A stretch of DNA of 24,864 nt, taken from the IMG/VR virus record IMGVR_UViG_3300048925_000444, positions 1 to 24,864 of that record; one strand, written 5' to 3'. Positions within the stretch are counted from its first letter, which is position 1; every line of letters begins with the position of its first letter. The notes beneath the pieces were generated by a model that saw only the letters and a list, made by a program, of their open reading frames with translations, did not search any database and had not been told where the DNA came from. Below are positions 16,916 to 24,398 of the stretch, in pieces. This DNA comes from a virus. The position numbers and the translations under genes are program-made.

Positions 16916-17569
16916 CTACGCCGCATCGAGATGCTCGACCCGCACGGTCATGGGCACAGGCTTGCCCAACAGCTCGATCAGCACCTCCGCCTCGGCCAAG
17001 CCGAGATGCTCTGTCACCTCGGCAAGGAAGCCCATGAATGGCCCGCTGATGACCTTGACCTTCTGCCCAGGCGAGAGCTTGGGATCAGGCCGGAGGATGT
17101 CGCGGCGCGGCTCAACTGCATCGTTCTGGTAGGCAGCAACCTTGGCGATGGCCGCCCGCGGCACGCGCGCCCAACCCTCTTGCGAGCGCACGATGTACAT
17201 CACGCCCTCGATCTCGCGGATATCGGTCAACGGTCGACCGTTGATCGTGATCACAGTCACACCGTCATCAGCGACCAGGTAGCGATCTCGCCCAACGGTC
17301 GGGACGCCGGAGGCGAAGAGATAGCCGGTGAACGTCGCGATCTGATGATCGGTCTCGCGGCGCTGGAAGCGGATCACACGACGGATCGCGGGCAGAAACA
17401 CCGAGCATCCAGCCTCGACCAGCCCCTTAGCTGCCTTGGCCTCCATGCGTGGCGCACAATGGACGAGATACCAATCGCGTCCGAGATCAAGATCGGCTGG
17501 GGCCGGAACCTTGGTTTCCTGTATGTCGCGGAAATGGACAAACGGCTTCTTTTCGCGGCGGCGTCCCAT
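16916..17569 (-). CDS. NusG/RfaH-like transcription antiterminator
   Basis: 217 residues, ATG 17569 with GAGGG about 7 bases upstream. Residues 31-148 form an NGN domain (DWYLVHCAPRMEAKAAKGL, then a conserved GYLFASG segment). Residues 165-215 form a KOW domain (LSPGQKVKVISGPFMGFLAEV). The linker is charged. NusG-family proteins bind RNA polymerase and change elongation or termination; specialised paralogs such as RfaH and LoaP act on one operon. Here the gene is directly upstream of the packaging and structural operon, which contains an internal terminator, so a Q-like late antitermination role is the natural inference. It lies 9 bases after the replication gene. Confidence 0.9.
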   Translation of the reverse strand: MGRRREKKPFVHFRDIQETKVPAPADLDLGRDWYLVHCAPRMEAKAAKGLVEAGCSVFLPAIRRVIRFQRRETDHQIATFTGYLFASGVPTVGRDRYLVADDGVTVITINGRPLTDIREIEGVMYIVRSQEGWARVPRAAIAKVAAYQNDAVEPRRDILRPDPKLSPGQKVKVISGPFMGFLAEVTEHLGLAEAEVLIELLGKPVPMTVRVEHLDAA

Positions 17570-17578
17570 CGTCAGCCC

Positions 17579-18766
17579 TCAGAGCGGCACGTTGTCGTCG
17601 TCGCGCGGGTCGCGCGGCGGCATCTCACTCGGCAGGAACACGCGGAAGCTGCCGCGCAGCACCGGGATGCGGGTGCCGCGCTGCGCGAGCCATTGCCGCC
17701 ATGCGTCGATCTCTCGGCCATCGCAGAGATAGGGCCGGACCTCGCCGATGCGCTGGCGGGCGGCGTCGAGATCAGCGGAGGGCGCGCCCCAGGGCTTGCC
17801 CTCGTCGGCGCGCTGCACCCATATGCCGGCGCGCTCGCCGCGCATCACCTTGTCGAGCACGATGATCCACCAGTCGCGGGACCATGCGGCGATCTCGACA
17901 TGAGTGGTCGCAGCCGGTGCCGCAGCAGCCGATGCCGCGATGTCCAGCCATTTGCGCTGTGCCAGATATCGGTCGCCGGCCGGGATATGCTTGCGGCCGA
18001 TCTTCTTCAGATGAGCGAGGAAGGGCGCGATCCCGTCGATAGCCAAGCGGCGATCGGCTTGGCTCAGCCCAATCCAGGCGTTCTCGACCCTGACCTTGTC
18101 GTCGGCAACGTTGGTCGGCCAGCTCTTGCGGAAGTCGACCAGCGTCGGGATCGGGCGGTCGGCATCGCTTGCATCGGATGCATGCCCCTCGGCCTCGCCA
18201 TCGATCGCTGGCGATGCCTCGTGCCCATGCACACCCTCTCTCTCAGGTTTGAGGGTTCTATAAGGGGTTGTATGACAAAGCTTGTCACCCTTAGCTGTCG
18301 CCGGTGTCACCCTATCCGCGCGTAAGGGTGACACGGTGTCACCCTTAATGGGGCCGGATTCGACCTCTGAACCCGTCTCATCGCATGCGTCGGATGCATG
18401 ACCATCGGCCTCGTCACCATCGTCCTCGCGCAGCGGATCGGCATGGGCAGCCGCCATCAGCGCGGGGTACAGCTCTGCCCGGCGCAGGCGCACCAACAGG
18501 TCGATATCCATCTCGTAATGAGCCGTCGAGCCGCGCCCCTGGCCGCCGTCCTTGAGGCGGCGCAGGAGGCCGATCCGGCAGAACTCGCCAATCACGCGCT
18601 GCACCGTGCGGCCCGAGCATTTCGCGAACTTCGCCACGGTCGCGACCGAGGGGAAGATGTTGCGGCCGTCATCGTCACAGCAATCGACGAGCTTGAGCAG
18701 CACGAGCAGATGCGACTGTGTCGGCACCTCGGCATCTGAGGCCGTCGAGAACAGGCGCCAGCTCAT
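17579..18766 (-). CDS. HTH replication initiator (lambda O-like in layout)
   Basis: 395 residues from ATG 18766 (AGGAGG 10 bases upstream), overlapping the methyltransferase stop as ATGA; a longer in-frame extension reads as Arg-rich shadow of the methyltransferase. Residues 13-90 form a winged HTH of the HTH_36 type (SHLLVLLKLVDCCDDDGRNI, then SGRTVQRVIGEFCRIGLLRR). Residues 110-205 are an acidic, low-complexity linker with two GHASDA repeats, and the C-terminal 190 residues are helical with many Trp. The linker is encoded by the iteron cluster. The role as initiator is inferred from the HTH, the embedded iterons and the position between early methyltransferases and NusG. A regulator role is the alternative. 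Confidence 0.8.
   Translation of the reverse strand: MSWRLFSTASDAEVPTQSHLLVLLKLVDCCDDDGRNIFPSVATVAKFAKCSGRTVQRVIGEFCRIGLLRRLKDGGQGRGSTAHYEMDIDLLVRLRRAELYPALMAAAHADPLREDDGDEADGHASDACDETGSEVESGPIKGDTVSPLRADRVTPATAKGDKLCHTTPYRTLKPEREGVHGHEASPAIDGEAEGHASDASDADRPIPTLVDFRKSWPTNVADDKVRVENAWIGLSQADRRLAIDGIAPFLAHLKKIGRKHIPAGDRYLAQRKWLDIAASAAAAPAATTHVEIAAWSRDWWIIVLDKVMRGERAGIWVQRADEGKPWGAPSADLDAARQRIGEVRPYLCDGREIDAWRQWLAQRGTRIPVLRGSFRVFLPSEMPPRDPRDDDNVPL
18163..18197. repeat. 35-base direct repeat, left copy
   Basis: Matches 18379-18413 at 31 of 35 bases; the offset of 216 bases keeps the frame, so both encode the GHASDA segment. The two copies flank the iteron cluster and AT-rich stretch. Confidence 0.7.
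18282..18347. other. Candidate replication origin: four iterons inside the initiator gene
   Basis: Copies of TGTCACCCTTA occur at 18282-18293 (TTGTCACCCTTA), 18304-18314 (one T missing), 18323-18334 (inverted) and 18336-18347. A weaker TGTCGCC lies between the first two. The first two are 22 bases apart, about two helical turns. The stretch 18244-18283 next to it is about 57% A+T by hand count against about 35% around it. In lambda, iterons plus an AT-rich stretch lie inside gene O. The encoded residues are in a flexible linker, so repeats cost the protein little. Confidence 0.6.
18323..18347. promoter_or_regulatory. Perfect 25-base palindrome made of two iterons
   Basis: TAAGGGTGACAC, one G, then GTGTCACCCTTA: 12-base arms with a single-base spacer, the strongest dyad I saw in the window. 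It would suit a dimeric DNA-binding protein such as the HTH initiator itself. Confidence 0.7.
18379..18413. repeat. 35-base direct repeat, right copy
   Basis: Partner of 18163-18197 (31/35 identical). It encodes the other GHASDA segment of the replication protein linker and lies 31 bases beyond the last iteron. Confidence 0.7.
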
Positions 18767-19494
18767 AGCCCGAGCGCCTCCTGCTGAGAGGGCGGCGGAA
18801 CGATATCCAGCCCCAGGCGGGGCGCCTTCAGCTCTTCCGAGATGCGCCGGCAGGCGATATCGAAATACTTGCGGTCGATCTCGACCCCGGTGAAGGGGCG
18901 GTCCAGCCGCGCGCAGGCGACACCGGTCGTACCTGACCCCATGTAGGGATCGAGAATGCGGAGGGATGGGTCCACCATGCCGACGCACCAGAGCATGAGA
19001 TGCAGGGGCTTCTGCGTGGGGTGGACGCGCTTTTCTCGCTGGCCACCGCGCTGATCCTGCAACAATCCCTTCCACAGCAGAGAGAAGATGCGATCCTTTC
19101 CGCGCCCCTTCCGCCAAGCGAATTCCACATCCGAGAAATCGTCGAAGGCCGGCAGGCCCGCGAGCTTGTCCCAGGCCAACCAACGGCCATGTGGCAGCCG
19201 CGCCGCGAAGTGATTGCCTCCCCATAGAATAACGTCTTCAGCGCCCAGAAGAGGCGACGGATCGAAAGGGGCATCGTCGCCGACGATGGCCGCATCGTTA
19301 CTATGACTGGCCTCACGCTTGGCGCGCGCGCCGTTCGCCATCCTCCAACCGCCGCCACCGCCGCCACGTCGATAGCCGATGCCGTACGGCGGATCGCTGA
19401 CCACCGCATCCACCTTGCCGAGCGTCGGCAGGATCTCCCGGCAGTCGCCGAGATAGAGCGTCACGGAATCGGAGAGGTGCTCGACGCGGCTCAT
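18763..19494 (-). CDS. DNA methyltransferase, beta class (N6-adenine or N4-cytosine)
   Basis: 243 residues from ATG 19494 (GGAGG 7 bases upstream), overlapping the preceding stop as ATGA. The motif order is IV first and I later: SDPPYGIGY (33-41) then HPTQKP (158-163) and DPYMGSGTTG (182-191), which defines beta-class enzymes. A Gly-rich insert lies at 44-49. It transfers a methyl group from S-adenosylmethionine to an exocyclic amine in DNA. The target sequence cannot be read from the protein. It is short for the class but with all key motifs. No restriction gene is nearby, so it is an orphan. Confidence 0.93.
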   Translation of the reverse strand: MSRVEHLSDSVTLYLGDCREILPTLGKVDAVVSDPPYGIGYRRGGGGGGWRMANGARAKREASHSNDAAIVGDDAPFDPSPLLGAEDVILWGGNHFAARLPHGRWLAWDKLAGLPAFDDFSDVEFAWRKGRGKDRIFSLLWKGLLQDQRGGQREKRVHPTQKPLHLMLWCVGMVDPSLRILDPYMGSGTTGVACARLDRPFTGVEIDRKYFDIACRRISEELKAPRLGLDIVPPPSQQEALGL

Positions 19495-20363
19495 TCCGCA
19501 GCCTCCAAGGCACGGAACAGCCCCAGCCCGGCGCCGGCCCTCTCGCTCTTCAGCGCGGCGGTGCAGGCCGGGTTGATCCACAGAACCTCCATGCGCGGGC
19601 GGGCGCCATCCGCCAGCGCTACGCGCTCGACGCGCGCCCAATCGGTCAGGGCGTCGTCATAGAGCGGCGAGGGATAGCCGGAGAGCACCACCATGCCCTT
19701 CAATGCGCGGACCGCCTCGAGGAGCATGAGGTGATCGGCATCAGTCAGCTCGTGCCGATACTTGTGCTTGGCGCAGTAGGGATTGCCGCCCGATCGCGTC
19801 TCGTGGACATAGGGCGGGTCGACATAGTGCAGCGTCTCGACCCGGTCATGCGCCTGCATGACGGCGACCGCATCCCGGCTTTCGATCACGACGCCGGCGA
19901 GCCGCGCCACGATATCCGGCAGCAGTGCGGGATAGTTCGCCCAATCATGCGCCGGCGTGGTGCCGCTTTTGTTGCTGTCGGCACGGAAGCCGGTCGAGCG
20001 GCCCAGCGCGCCAGTATTGCCGAAGCCCATCAGGCTTCTGACGATCAGCCGACGCGCCTGCTCGACAGGATCGTCTGACGGTTCATAAGCCGCCATGAAC
20101 TCGGTGCGCGCGAAGGGCGTCAGTGCGAGATGCTCGCGCAGCCGTTCAGCATCCGGTCCGCGCAGGACACGGAACAGGTTCACGAGATCGCTATCGAGAT
20201 CGTTGTAGACCTCGGCATAGGCGCGCGGCTTTCGCAGCAGCACCGAGGCGGCGCCGCCAAACGGCTCGACATAGATCCGGTGGCGCGGGAAATGGCCGAT
20301 GATCCAAGGCGCCAGCAGCCACTTGCCACCGTGCCAGCGCAGGAGGGGGCGTTGAGGCTCCAT
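19491..20363 (-). CDS. D12-class adenine-N6 DNA methyltransferase (Dam-like, alpha class)
   Basis: 290 residues from ATG 20363, coupled to the previous stop as TGATG. Motif X PLLRWHGGKWLLAPWI (6-21), motif I YVEPFGGAASVLL (31-43) and motif IV YVDPPY (180-185) appear in the order of the D12 family that includes Dam. The target recognition region lies between I and IV. It would methylate adenine; GATC is common for Dam but not shown here. It sits between the C5 and beta-class methyltransferases in one coupled operon and has no restriction partner. Confidence 0.95.
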   Translation of the reverse strand: MEPQRPLLRWHGGKWLLAPWIIGHFPRHRIYVEPFGGAASVLLRKPRAYAEVYNDLDSDLVNLFRVLRGPDAERLREHLALTPFARTEFMAAYEPSDDPVEQARRLIVRSLMGFGNTGALGRSTGFRADSNKSGTTPAHDWANYPALLPDIVARLAGVVIESRDAVAVMQAHDRVETLHYVDPPYVHETRSGGNPYCAKHKYRHELTDADHLMLLEAVRALKGMVVLSGYPSPLYDDALTDWARVERVALADGARPRMEVLWINPACTAALKSERAGAGLGLFRALEAAE

Positions 20364-22387
20364 CACTCCGCCGCCTCCATGAACAGGGGCGACGTGACGA
20401 CGGGCGCCGGTTGCTCGCTTTCGCGGGGCTGGAAGTTCGCGGCGACAAGGGCTTGCGCCAGCGGCGGGCAGACGCTGTTGCCGCACATGCGGACCTGCGC
20501 CGTCTTCGTGATGGGGATCGGCTCAACCGTGCCGTCATCCTCGCCCCAGCCCTCGCGCACCTCGACCTTCAGGCCCCGGTCGATGATGTAGGAATCGGGG
20601 AAGCCCTGCGCGCGGAACAGCTCACGCGGGGACAGCATCCGCATGCCGATATCGGCGATGACATAGGGCTCACCGCCGATCTCGACCGTGACCAGGCCGA
20701 AGCGAGCCTTCGCCGTGGCCGTGTGCAGCGGATCCTGTGCATCCTGCCCGATCGCCGGCCCGTAATATTTGGACAGGAAGGCCCGCACTTCGGTCGCGTG
20801 CGTCGTGCCGGCGCAGATCGTCGGGATCGGATCGTCGGGGCCGGACGAGGCCCGCTGCGAGCCCTTCATATTGAGCACATGCGAGGCGACCAGCGCCTGC
20901 TGCGGCATGCCGAAGGCGCCGCCCGCGGTGAGCGTCGAGACGGGCTTGTCAAGCGAATGCCCGACCACGCCGGTATTGTGCTGCGCGAGGAAAGCCGCGA
21001 CCGCCGCATGCTTCACGCCGCCGGCGACAACGGTGCCGAGCGGTTGCGCGGGGTCGAGCGCTCGCGGCTCCTGCCCCTCGCGCTCGCCATAGCCGGTCTG
21101 CACCAGCGTGCAGCCGATAAGCGCATTCTGATCCTTGGCCGAGGCGCAGATCGTCGAATGCGGCTCCTCCGGTGACCGGTTCAGGCCACCCTGCTGCGCA
21201 TAGGTCAGCACCGGCGCGACAAGGCAAACATCGGCCTTGGCCGTGCCCGTGGCGGTCGGTTCGTCCGCGCTGCGCGGGCGCGATTGACCCGCCCGGCCCC
21301 CGCAACCGACGAGAATGGGCGAGATGAGCCCGAGCGGCGCGCAGCCGCCGGGGCGCAATCTGTTTTCGCCGTTTGCGGTGACGGTGTGCAGGGGCTCGTC
21401 GAGCGACGAGCCGATGCTGTTCGCCCGGAATTTCGTGACGAAGGGTGAACTTGCCTCTTGAACACGGTTGGAGGCTTCACCAGATACGCCGTCCTCGGGG
21501 GGCATCAGCCTAGGGGCGAAAGCGGTGTTGTCACCCGCTAGGAGCGGTTCGAATCCGCTATGCTCCCCGAGCTTTCTTCCGCTCATCGTCACCACGAACG
21601 GCTTCGCCGCGTCGATCACGTAGCGCTTCACGCCGCGCGCGATGCGCGCCATCGTCGCGTCTGCCAGCGGCCGGTTGACGCCGACGGCCCGGCCTTCCTC
21701 GCGGGTGAGGAAGATCGAATGGCAGGGCAGGGACCAGTCGATGATGCTGGCCGCCGTGCGCCAGGGCAGCTTGCGCCCGGCGATCACATCGGGATCGTCC
21801 GGCTTGCCATGCGTCGGCGTCGGCCAGACGATCTTTTCGCCGTCGCGCCGGGCGATCACGAAGAGCCGCTTGCGGATCGTCGGCGCGCCATAGTCGCAGG
21901 CGCGAAGCTCGCGGTGCTCGACCTTGTAGCCGAGCCGCCTCAGCTCCCCGCACCACCGCTTGAAATCATGCCCCTTGCGATCCTTGCAGGGCACGCCCTC
22001 GGCCGAGATCGGCCCCCAATCGCGGAACTCCTCGACGTTTTCGAGGATGATCACGCGCGGGCGCACCTGCTTGGCCCAGCGCGGCACCACCCAGGCCAGA
22101 TCGCGGATGTTCCGCTTCACCGGCCTGCCGCCCTTGGCCTTGGAGAAGTGCTTGCAGTCGGGCGAGGCCCAGAGCAGCCCGACAGGGCGCCCCGCCGTCA
22201 CCGCGACGGGGTCGACCTTCCAGACATTGTGCGGCAGGTGCAGCGTCTCCGGATGGTTCATCCGGTGCAGCGCCAGCGCCTCGGCGTCATGGTTGATGGC
22301 GATGTCGGGCGAGCGGCCGAGCGCCATCTCGATGCCGGTGGAAGCCCCGCCGCCGCCGGCGAAGGAATCGACGATCAGCTCACGCAT
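20363..22387 (-). CDS. C5-cytosine DNA methyltransferase with long internal repeat region
   Basis: 674 residues from ATG 22387; the in-frame region upstream to 22519 is shadow of the Cys-rich gene. Motif I is DSFAGGGGASTGIE (7-20). The catalytic motif IV is SPDCKHFS (75-82) with C78 in PDC rather than the usual PCQ. Motif VI is LENVEEF (115-121), and motif VIII is around residues 158-176. Motifs IX-X are RMLSPRELFRAQGFPD (583-598) and MCGNSVCPPLAQAL (634-647). Between them, residues 313-570 hold about seven degenerate repeats with the pattern (D/E)xPxxTxxA followed by a hydrophobic L/V stretch and often a G. Such repeats occur in long phage enzymes. The target is unknown. Confidence 0.93.
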   Translation of the reverse strand: MRELIVDSFAGGGGASTGIEMALGRSPDIAINHDAEALALHRMNHPETLHLPHNVWKVDPVAVTAGRPVGLLWASPDCKHFSKAKGGRPVKRNIRDLAWVVPRWAKQVRPRVIILENVEEFRDWGPISAEGVPCKDRKGHDFKRWCGELRRLGYKVEHRELRACDYGAPTIRKRLFVIARRDGEKIVWPTPTHGKPDDPDVIAGRKLPWRTAASIIDWSLPCHSIFLTREEGRAVGVNRPLADATMARIARGVKRYVIDAAKPFVVTMSGRKLGEHSGFEPLLAGDNTAFAPRLMPPEDGVSGEASNRVQEASSPFVTKFRANSIGSSLDEPLHTVTANGENRLRPGGCAPLGLISPILVGCGGRAGQSRPRSADEPTATGTAKADVCLVAPVLTYAQQGGLNRSPEEPHSTICASAKDQNALIGCTLVQTGYGEREGQEPRALDPAQPLGTVVAGGVKHAAVAAFLAQHNTGVVGHSLDKPVSTLTAGGAFGMPQQALVASHVLNMKGSQRASSGPDDPIPTICAGTTHATEVRAFLSKYYGPAIGQDAQDPLHTATAKARFGLVTVEIGGEPYVIADIGMRMLSPRELFRAQGFPDSYIIDRGLKVEVREGWGEDDGTVEPIPITKTAQVRMCGNSVCPPLAQALVAANFQPRESEQPAPVVTSPLFMEAAE

Positions 22388-22781
22388 GGGCGCTCTCGGA
22401 AGGACGTGAAGAAGACGAGCGCCGAGCCGCATTGAAGCGGTCGCGCTGCACGAAGCGGCGGAGCAAGCCGAAGCGCAAGCCAACGGTCTCGGCCGGGGCG
22501 CGCCATTGCGCTTCCTCAACCGAGGAGGTCGCGTCTTCCTGCAAATTTCCGTGAGACCAGCAGGTGCATGGGACGTTGTTCGTCACCCACTGCCGGATGT
22601 CGTAACACCGCTCGCAGGTCAGATAGGTGCCGATCTCGCCATCCCACTTGCCGGATACGCGCTCGTAGCGCTCGCCGGGACGGATCTCGCCGGAGCACTC
22701 GTAACAGCGATGAAGCGTTCGCGCGGTCGGCTTGGAGCTGCAGTAGAACTCGGGCGCCTCGTAATCGCAGGAGCAGCTCAC
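22380..22781 (-). CDS. Cys-rich zinc-ribbon-like protein, 133 aa
   Basis: GTG 22781 has GGGAGG five bases upstream and overlaps the previous TGA as GTGA. The first 75 residues hold C26-x2-C29 and C56-x2-C59, with C3, C5, C14, C72 and C74 as extra candidates, so one or two zinc sites are likely. A YECSGEIRPGERYERVSGKW segment has the look of a treble-clef or zinc-ribbon start. The remainder is Arg/Ser-rich and probably disordered. It overlaps the methyltransferase start by 8 bases. Function unknown; a nucleic-acid-binding role near the methyltransferases is a guess. Confidence 0.7.
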   Translation of the reverse strand: MSCSCDYEAPEFYCSSKPTARTLHRCYECSGEIRPGERYERVSGKWDGEIGTYLTCERCYDIRQWVTNNVPCTCWSHGNLQEDATSSVEEAQWRAPAETVGLRFGLLRRFVQRDRFNAARRSSSSRPSESAHA

Positions 22782-24097
22782 GCGCGCCTCCCGATCGGCA
22801 GAGCGGGCAGTTCGGCAGCCGCAAAATCGTCAAGCTCAGTTGAGACAGGCCGGCCCGTCGCAACCATCTTCCCGGCATCGGGCAAATGGTCCGGCGCCTC
22901 GGCGCCCCAGGCATCCCAGCCTGGCCGGCGCGCACGGGCGTTCAGCTCGACCTTGGGCAGGCCGGGGAAATAGGCTTCGATCAGCTCATAGGCGCGCTCG
23001 GGCTTCGCCGAGTGGCGTCCGACAGGCGCGATGAACAGTGAGGGCCATTGCGCGCCTGGCGCCGGCGCCGGCACGCGGCCCTTCGTCGCGAGGATCAGGA
23101 TCTCGCATTCGTCGGTGAACCAGTAGCCGGTGCCGCGCATCTCGCCGGCCCGGCGCTTCCCCCACACCGCGAGGGATTTGTAGGCGAAGCCCCAGGCGTC
23201 GATGACCCTGAGCGCCTGCGGCAGCATCGGCCGCGTCGCCCACAGAAACAGGGCGCAGTCGGACGCGGCGATCTCCCAGACTGGCCGCGCCGCGATCTCT
23301 TCGACCGAGGAGGTCGGGTAGTGATTGTCTGCCGCGCGATCCATGCCGGTTTCGCGCGAGCGCGGCTCGAAGCGCCATTCCGGATCGGCATAGATCACCC
23401 CGTAGCGCTTGCCGGCCGCACCTGCTGCGGCGAGGGCGGCGTTGCCGTCCGCGATCTTGTCCGCGAGTTTCTGCTCGCTGGCGTCGCGCGCGGCCTTCTT
23501 CTGTTCCTGCTTCGCCCGATGCTGTTCGCTGACGAGCTGATGCAGCGCCGAAACGGGCACCGAGCGCAACGTCGCCATATGCGCGGCGTTCCGGCCGATT
23601 GCCGCCGTGTCCATCTTGGCGACGGTGCCGTGCTTCGTCGTGAAGCTGCGTTCGCTCAAAACGTTATGAGTGAGGCCGCGCATCTTGCCGACGAAGGGCT
23701 GCGAGACATGGGCGCGCCGAGCGATTTCACCGTCGCTCCAGCCCGACCATTCAGGATCGGACAGCAGCAGGATGACGGCCCGGCGCTTGTCCTCGGTCGT
23801 GCGCCGCAAGCCATGGGTGGCATTGGCGCCGCAGGCGAACAGCACGGCGTCGCGCTGCGTGCCCGTCCTGATATCGGCGTCGATCTCCGCGCGCCCGGCG
23901 ACGGCATGCGCCTCGGTGCGGTGGAAGCCGTCGGCCAGCCAGTGGCTCGTGCCGTCGTGGAAGACGATGACGGGCGGGAAACTCGCCCCCTCGCGCACGC
24001 CGTCGGCATAAGCATCGACAGTTGCCGGATCGAGCATGGCGCGCGGCTGCGTTCCGCCGTCGCGCCTCAGCTTCGCGATGGCGATCATCTCAGCCAT
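22778..24097 (-). CDS. ParB-like / HTH / MT-A70 adenine methyltransferase fusion
   Basis: 439 residues from ATG 24097. Residues 1-115 form a ParB/Srx-like domain (FHDGTSHWLADGFHRTEAH at 46-64, a DGFHR box). Residues 120-142 are an HTH (SDGEIARRAHVSQPFVGKMR), and a charged coiled-coil-like stretch covers 188-225. The C-terminal part is an MT-A70 methyltransferase: YADPEW (236-241) at motif IV where DPPW is usual, then NHYPTSSVEEI, LFLWATRPMLPQAL and KPERAYELIEAYFPG. It would methylate adenine N6 with S-adenosylmethionine. A ParB-HTH part fused to it may give sequence recognition. Coupled to a zinc protein upstream (8-base overlap) and to the Cys-rich gene (GTGA). Confidence 0.9.
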   Translation of the reverse strand: MAEMIAIAKLRRDGGTQPRAMLDPATVDAYADGVREGASFPPVIVFHDGTSHWLADGFHRTEAHAVAGRAEIDADIRTGTQRDAVLFACGANATHGLRRTTEDKRRAVILLLSDPEWSGWSDGEIARRAHVSQPFVGKMRGLTHNVLSERSFTTKHGTVAKMDTAAIGRNAAHMATLRSVPVSALHQLVSEQHRAKQEQKKAARDASEQKLADKIADGNAALAAAGAAGKRYGVIYADPEWRFEPRSRETGMDRAADNHYPTSSVEEIAARPVWEIAASDCALFLWATRPMLPQALRVIDAWGFAYKSLAVWGKRRAGEMRGTGYWFTDECEILILATKGRVPAPAPGAQWPSLFIAPVGRHSAKPERAYELIEAYFPGLPKVELNARARRPGWDAWGAEAPDHLPDAGKMVATGRPVSTELDDFAAAELPALPIGRRA

Positions 24098-24398
24098 GGC
24101 GCGGCGCTCCGGTGCGGACCAGCCAGCCGAGCCCGTCGCAGGTGATGCAGGCCGGGCGCGTGCCGTCATCGGTGACGATGCGCCAGCCTTGCCCATGGCA
24201 GTCCGGGCAGACCGGCGGGCAGAGCGGGCAGCGCCGCTTGCGCCCGTCGCGCTGAACCATGTGGAAGGCAGCACTCTCGCAATGGGGCGATGCAGCGGAA
24301 GAAAGAGCCGCCGGCGCGGAATGGGGCCGTGCCGGCGGCAGGTGGCCGGCCGCGTCCGCGACAGCCGGCAGGGGGATTGGGAGGGGGTGGGCGCTCAC
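24090..24398 (-). CDS. DnaJ-type zinc-finger protein, 102 aa
   Basis: GTG 24398, with GGGAG six bases upstream and a GTGA overlap with the previous stop. The first 46 residues are Pro/Ala-rich. Then CPLCPPVCPDCHGQGW (57-72) and CITCDGLGW (84-92) give two CxxCxGxG-like half-sites of the kind found in DnaJ central domains, probably holding one zinc ion. It is short and lacks a J domain, so it is not a co-chaperone. It may bind nucleic acid or protein. Its stop overlaps the ParB/MT-A70 start by 8 bases. Confidence 0.72.
   Translation of the reverse strand: MSAHPLPIPLPAVADAAGHLPPARPHSAPAALSSAASPHCESAAFHMVQRDGRKRRCPLCPPVCPDCHGQGWRIVTDDGTRPACITCDGLGWLVRTGAPRHG

Follow-up and report, generated by a model that had tools for sequence, protein, structure and literature searches.

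Beyond a few model systems, the replication origins of phages are mostly unmapped. Among those described, origins lying inside a gene are already known from lambda, P22 (gene 18), Stx phages and the Pseudomonas phage MD8. In lambda, a dimer of the O protein binds each iteron and the O-some destabilises an AT-rich tract; the C-terminal part of O binds P, and P brings DnaB (PMC6022878, PMC7466680). In the Stx phage P27, altering iteron 1 or 1′ in ways that leave the O protein unchanged abolishes plasmid transformation (PMC7466680). Here we describe an array of GGTGACA half-sites at positions 18270-18347 of IMG/VR record IMGVR_UViG_3300048925_000444, a linear virus contig of 24,864 bases (the window, that is, the whole stretch analysed). 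The array lies inside the replication initiator gene P0001 (17579-18766, minus strand; 395 aa, starting MSWRLF), and it is very probably the replication origin of this phage, of the lambda type and bound by the product of the gene that contains it. A first-pass annotation of the window had already proposed an in-gene origin recognised by its own product. That proposal is backed by conservation of the array, selection at the DNA level, an AT-rich block that keeps to one side, co-inheritance of the array with the predicted DNA-binding domain and, in complete phages, restriction of the half-site to this gene. The sequence places the lambda-type layout in a different virus group, together with an unusually clear natural exchange of cassettes.

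The layout of ori-lambda in gene O, and of its versions in the Stx phages P27 and 933W, resembles that of the window: the origin lies midway along the gene of a winged helix-turn-helix (wHTH) initiator, palindromic iterons give way to an AT-rich tract towards the C-terminal-coding end, and the protein is made of an N-terminal DNA-binding part, a linker and a C-terminal recruiting domain (domain model in PMC6022878), roles that are predicted in the case of the window, as is the origin. However, the lambda iteron is CCCTCnnnnnGAGGG (CCCTC...GAGGG) and not GGTGACA. Lambda also has four regularly spaced iterons with gene P adjoining, whereas the window has a palindrome, a single site and a second palindrome with a NusG-like gene adjoining, and the C-terminal domain differs from that of lambda O. 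P22 likewise carries an annotated origin inside an O-like gene (gene 18), with palindromic repeats TTTACCnnATCGGTAAA (TTTACC...GGTAAA) after the wHTH, but the repeat is different and a DnaB-like phage helicase (gene 12) comes next.

Half-site array and adjoining AT-rich block

The only Pfam match of P0001 was HTH_36 at the N-terminus (E = 1.1e-7). The protein also matched the PHROG families phrog_270 ('replication initiation protein'; E = 1.7e-12, residues 1-375) and phrog_391 ('replication initiation O-like'; E = 9.9e-12, residues 1-139). In an AlphaFold2 model built on a 22-row alignment, the predicted local distance difference test (pLDDT) was ~90 for the wHTH (residues 1-110), ~42 for the linker (115-200) and ~88 for the C-terminal part (205-391). 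The HTH_36 match, this model and fold comparison place the wHTH-coding region at 18437-18766 (minus), including a predicted recognition helix (residues 52-64; 18575-18613, minus). The C-terminal domain (residues 205-395), which may recruit a helicase or the replisome, is encoded at 17582-18154 (minus). PDB fold comparison of the wHTH (VIA-align included) returned generic CRP/MarR-type wHTH folds only. A fold search among viral predicted proteins found many phage HTH proteins, including replication protein O of Min27 (E = 2.1e-5). A PDB sequence search gave zero matches for P0001 and for lambda O, and no relatives of the C-terminal domain were found in a plasmid collection.

The array falls in the part of the gene that encodes the linker (residues ~140-165). 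Read in gene direction (18766 to 17579), it runs AAGGGTGACAC-C-GTGTCACCCTT / AGGGTGACA / AAGGGTGACAAGCTTTGTCA, that is, palindrome, single site, palindrome. It comprises four exact copies of GGTGACA and one decayed copy, with the AT-rich block next to them. The first-pass annotation had reported four copies of an 11-base repeat. All four are indeed exact at the 7-base core (GGTGACA/TGTCACC), but over the full 11 bases TGTCACCCTTA is exact at only three places (18283-18293, plus; 18323-18333, minus; 18337-18347, plus), and the fourth, the single half-site TGTCACCCTAT (18305-18315, plus), agrees at 9/11. The perfect 25-base palindrome that it had also described was confirmed at 18323-18347: TAAGGGTGACAC-N-GTGTCACCCTTA has 12-base arms (18323-18334 and 18336-18347) around one base, leaves 3 bases between the GGTGACA cores and is kept in relatives. 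As a rule, paired cores are separated by 3-6 bases (68 genes). The half-site at 18283-18293 is one arm of a second palindrome. Its other arm is a decayed fifth half-site that had been overlooked, GTATGACA in place of GGGTGACA (18270-18277, minus; TATGACA at ~18271-18277). In L004, an 80%-identical relative, this fifth site is intact and completes the second palindrome, GGGTGACAAGCTTTGTCACCC. Allowing up to two mismatches, TGTCACCCTTA occurs six times in the window compared to 1.39 expected from shuffling, and four of the six occurrences lie inside 65 bases.

The array is also flanked by a direct repeat of 38 bases (87% identical; 18163-18200 and 18379-18416, 216 bases apart), both copies of which code for similar HASDA peptides.

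Directly 3′ of the exact half-sites in gene direction, and overlapping the decayed one, lies the AT-rich neighbour noticed by the first-pass annotation (18241-18282), a candidate unwinding element. Its AT content is 0.571 compared to 0.345 window-wide, and positions 18253-18282 rank in the top 0.7% of 30-base stretches. The same was seen across 68 genes: past the last half-site, the AT excess over the contig was 0.168 in the first 30 bases and 0.096 in the next 30. Over the 60 bases after the array it was positive in 67/68 genes and it had vanished by +60, while upstream of the array no comparable rise was found in these genes. Thus, iterons are followed by an AT-rich tract, in the same order as in ori-lambda.

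Exchange of the wHTH and its array between related genes

Origin specificity set by the N-terminal part of O was reportedly addressed with lambda-phi80 hybrids by Furth and Yates in 1978, a study cited in PMC6022878. Natural counterparts of such exchanges could be examined in a set of loci gathered by their C-terminal domain alone, plus the window and the phage yong2. Ten genes of this set, window and yong2 included, contain between three and five exact GGTGACA but lack GGTATCA, and seven others contain 3-5 GGTATCA but lack GGTGACA. The predicted recognition helix differs accordingly, reading C-[SA]-x-[RQ]-x-x-[QRK]-R in the GGTGACA class and C-S-[VI]-[PAV]-T-A-R-R in the GGTATCA class, so that a single position is R/Q in 10/10 genes of the former and P/A/V in 7/7 of the latter. 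A third type of wHTH, present in L420 and in a Bradyrhizobium phage (L011), is accompanied by GGTGCC-type repeats at the same place.

In a tree of the C-terminal domain the two classes were interleaved, with 5 changes, at least four of them forced by well-supported branches. In the wHTH tree the GGTATCA class formed a single clade (support 98/98). Comparison of the DNA of L406 and L410 located the transition: from the gene start to the last half-site 322/530 bases are identical (61%), and after it 351/367 (96%). The same jump in identity after the last half-site was found for L408. Since the repeat class tracks the wHTH and the breakpoint lies just past the array, wHTH and array share one line of inheritance and are separated from the rest of the gene at that point. 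Overall, these comparisons indicate that the wHTH plus the putative origin moves as one cassette, and this co-inheritance provides the best evidence, short of experiment, that the product reads the array. With the array placed between the DNA-binding and the predicted recruiting codes, one crossover just past it would exchange reader and target, and new specificities would therefore arise as matched cassettes.

A stretch of the form AACCCCTTAnnnnAACCCTnAn(n)TGAGAGAGAGGG, located just past the array (1911-1960 in L406, and in relatives), is near-identical in the GGTGACA and GGTATCA classes. The recombination breakpoint lies in this stretch, which may be a second functional origin element.

RepA of the Vibrio satellite PLE shows a comparable modular swapping, in which binding domain and origin co-vary (PMC8263062). 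In contrast to the window, the PLE origin occupies the intergenic region next to the gene, and its repeats are ~30 bp.

Co-inheritance of wHTH and array would equally be expected if the array were an operator, through which the HTH protein or another regulator represses or times expression of the initiator gene or of the operon downstream while replication starts elsewhere. A wHTH protein sitting on palindromes in its own gene could block transcription, and such autorepression could coexist with origin function. Nevertheless, we consider an operator instead of an origin unlikely, because it leaves unexplained the AT-rich block on a constant side, the PHROG matches to replication initiation and the matching layout of lambda O and P22 gene 18, both with annotated origin features. 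Less likely still is that the array serves as a centromere or as a packaging site. The former would be bound by the ParB-like protein encoded 4 kb away (22781-24109, minus), whose ParB-like domain (phrog_1033) is fused to MT-A70, and the latter by the terminase, encoded ~2 kb away. However, where the letters of the array vary they do so along with the wHTH encoded by the same gene, and neither hypothesis predicts that partner. Such arrays are also present in phages whose surrounding genes are quite unlike these, for example mEp043.

Selection on the array DNA and distribution of the half-site

Conservation of the iterons in relatives was a check proposed by the first-pass annotation, and the array is kept in five viral relatives found by protein search (~50-80% identity). 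We compared the codons used for identical residues in the window and in L004. Results showed that 34/35 were identical in residues 139-177, compared to 174/263 (66%) elsewhere. The trend was repeated in five further pairs, two of which gave 31/32 and 24/25 versus 66%. Codon counts over aligned columns are partly circular, as 9/16 rows were found with the GGTGACA pattern; the count inside exact half-sites (GGT in 19/19), circular as well, was not used. When synonymous codons of the window gene were shuffled, 0/2000 shuffles reached four half-sites (maximum 3, mean 0.4), and in eight relatives 0-3/2000 reached the observed number.

In addition, the 353 clustered half-sites of 70 initiators occupy all five stop-free phases, over both strands (122, 75, 25, 70 and 61), and encode peptides as different as GDT, VTP/VTK, CH and SP, with three or more phase classes used in 60/70 genes. 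A single peptide can therefore not be the conserved entity, and these data indicate that selection acts on the DNA of the array and not on the peptide. The converse, selection for a repeated Gly-Asp-Thr / Val-Ser-Pro linker peptide with DNA similarity as a by-product, would agree with the conservation of KGDTVSP within the close family but is the most improbable reading of all given the five phases, the synonymous codons frozen at the array, the GIT/GYH found at the same place in GGTATCA relatives because the DNA word changed, and the predicted disorder of the linker.

The distribution of the half-site was examined by pattern scans of viral contigs and genomes, in which all counts are lower bounds. 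In viral contigs, a pattern of three half-sites was found in at least 120 stretches compared to 3 when the half-site was reversed, the reversed pattern being one control only. Among 71 scanned proteins (63 pattern-found clusters, near copies removed, and 8 seeds), 64 matched phrog_270, 48 HTH_36 and 17 Phage_rep_O. In the complete genomes of the Mesorhizobium phage MseS-P1 and of yong2, GGGTGACA is found nowhere but in the array of the initiator gene (4/4 in each). As the assembly of the window consists solely of the 24.9-kb virus contig, the host-wide check of TGTCACCCTTA suggested by the first-pass annotation was replaced by a look at 17 host genomes with pattern matches, which contain 1-4 GGTGACA palindromes apiece. 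Initiator-matching open reading frames (ORFs) came from Kitasatospora, Nocardia, Microbacterium, an Omnitrophota metagenome-assembled genome (MAG), an acidobacterium and a deltaproteobacterium. We claim no count of phyla, because some matches in genome contigs fall in unrelated genes, among them those for BRO-N antirepressors, EF-G and HlyD, and three tested pattern ORFs (L176, L195 and L150) matched no initiator.

In three genome contigs (L205, 1109-1966; L245, 5525-6172; L152, 6847-7479), the code for VTxCHQL-type peptides fits the GGTGACA...TGTCACC pattern. These ORFs look like a protein-level coincidence, since three members of the scan match BRO-N antirepressors.

Several points weigh against reading the array as the origin. 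The window is a fragment, the position of the origin is a prediction and all the evidence is sequence-based. The wHTH tree was built on 80 columns and 18 rows. The GC-skew change at the array that the first-pass annotation had suggested looking for was not seen: the window has a weak minimum at 19643, 1.3 kb off, and a minimum at the array is absent in both complete relatives, MseS-P1 and yong2, for which reason the test was judged uninformative and dropped. The model of the C-terminal domain found nothing in the PDB at E <= 0.001, and the searches gave this domain no name. Among the early-operon genes scanned against Pfam and PHROG, none was recognised as coding for a helicase or a loader, and none is annotated as such in MseS-P1. 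Finally, when phrog_270 matches were sampled without bias from five groups, GGTGACA arrays were present in only 5/134 usable loci. In 46 of the same 134 loci some 7-base word occurred at least four times in 130 bases, a count uncalibrated against chance. GGTGACA is thus one specificity among many.

Relation to lambda O, neighbouring genes and implications

The first-pass annotation had considered the likeness to lambda convergent. This does not fit well with the PHROG profiles, which tie P0001 to 'replication initiation' and 'O-like' families. The O protein of the lambdoid phage mEp043, a Phage_rep_O member to which lambda O aligns at 34%, matches phrog_270 too and has the GGTGACA half-site at the same position in its gene, and therefore divergence within one initiator superfamily seems the more likely course. 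mEp043 O differs in being enterobacterial and 286 aa long, with a toprim primase/helicase gene next to it, and no experimental mapping of its origin was found. P0001 did not match Phage_rep_O (PF04492), to which Pfam assigns lambda O, and is not counted as a member; in a direct profile-profile comparison with hhalign the helices of the two wHTH families were superposed, but the match was not significant (E = 0.41). The homology with lambda O, through phrog_270, is consequently indirect. Outside enterobacteria, gp56 of Pseudomonas phage MD8 also has repeats inside an O-like initiator gene, but MD8 encodes a P-like partner, and the parts of its description consulted contain no analysis of co-variation between repeats and protein (PMC8508860). 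Our literature search found no paper describing the GGTGACA class.

By analogy with lambda, we infer wHTH binding, AT-rich unwinding, helicase recruitment and replication at this locus. The N-terminal wHTH would bind the GGTGACA half-sites, with a dimer probably occupying each palindrome, and the bound complex would strain and open the AT-rich block. The C-terminal domain would then bring the host replicative helicase, a step that is a guess; since neither a loader nor a helicase gene turned up in the early operon scanned or in the annotation of MseS-P1, the domain may recruit host DnaB directly.

With no loader or helicase next to the initiator, the module was not filed with the lambda O-P or P22 18-12 kind. 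The initiator gene is followed by a NusG-like gene, then HNH, then terminase. The NusG-like protein (16916-17569, minus; NusG and KOW domains, phrog_6386 antiterminator) stands directly after the initiator in yong2 and MseS-P1 as well, and it could be the protein that antiterminates late transcription in this group of phages. Upstream, four DNA methyltransferase genes are clustered at 18766-24109 (minus): N6_N4 (18766-19491), D12/Dam-like (19494-20366), C5 cytosine (20366-22387) and the ParB-like/MT-A70 fusion. The phage yong2 (OM681334.1, L009 / L403) is labelled a Microcystis phage, yet the only named-phage relatives found for its initiator are phages of rhizobia; it may be worth checking the Microcystis assignment.

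Taken together, these findings indicate that sequence alone can reveal a probable origin here, along with the half-site and the protein likely to read it, and that the GGTGACA DNA pattern points to candidate origins in many prophages. As a tentative extension, GGTGACA could belong to a restricted repertoire of origin 'words' common to phage and prophage initiators of several bacterial phyla, written in any frame that the linker allows; the in-gene placement itself might be selected since one crossover swaps reader and target, and cassettes might be traded, perhaps as a way to escape incompatibility or competitors that target origins. The natural wHTH/iteron swaps, with their breakpoint just past the array, make the evolution of origin specificity testable in a case where reader and target share a gene.
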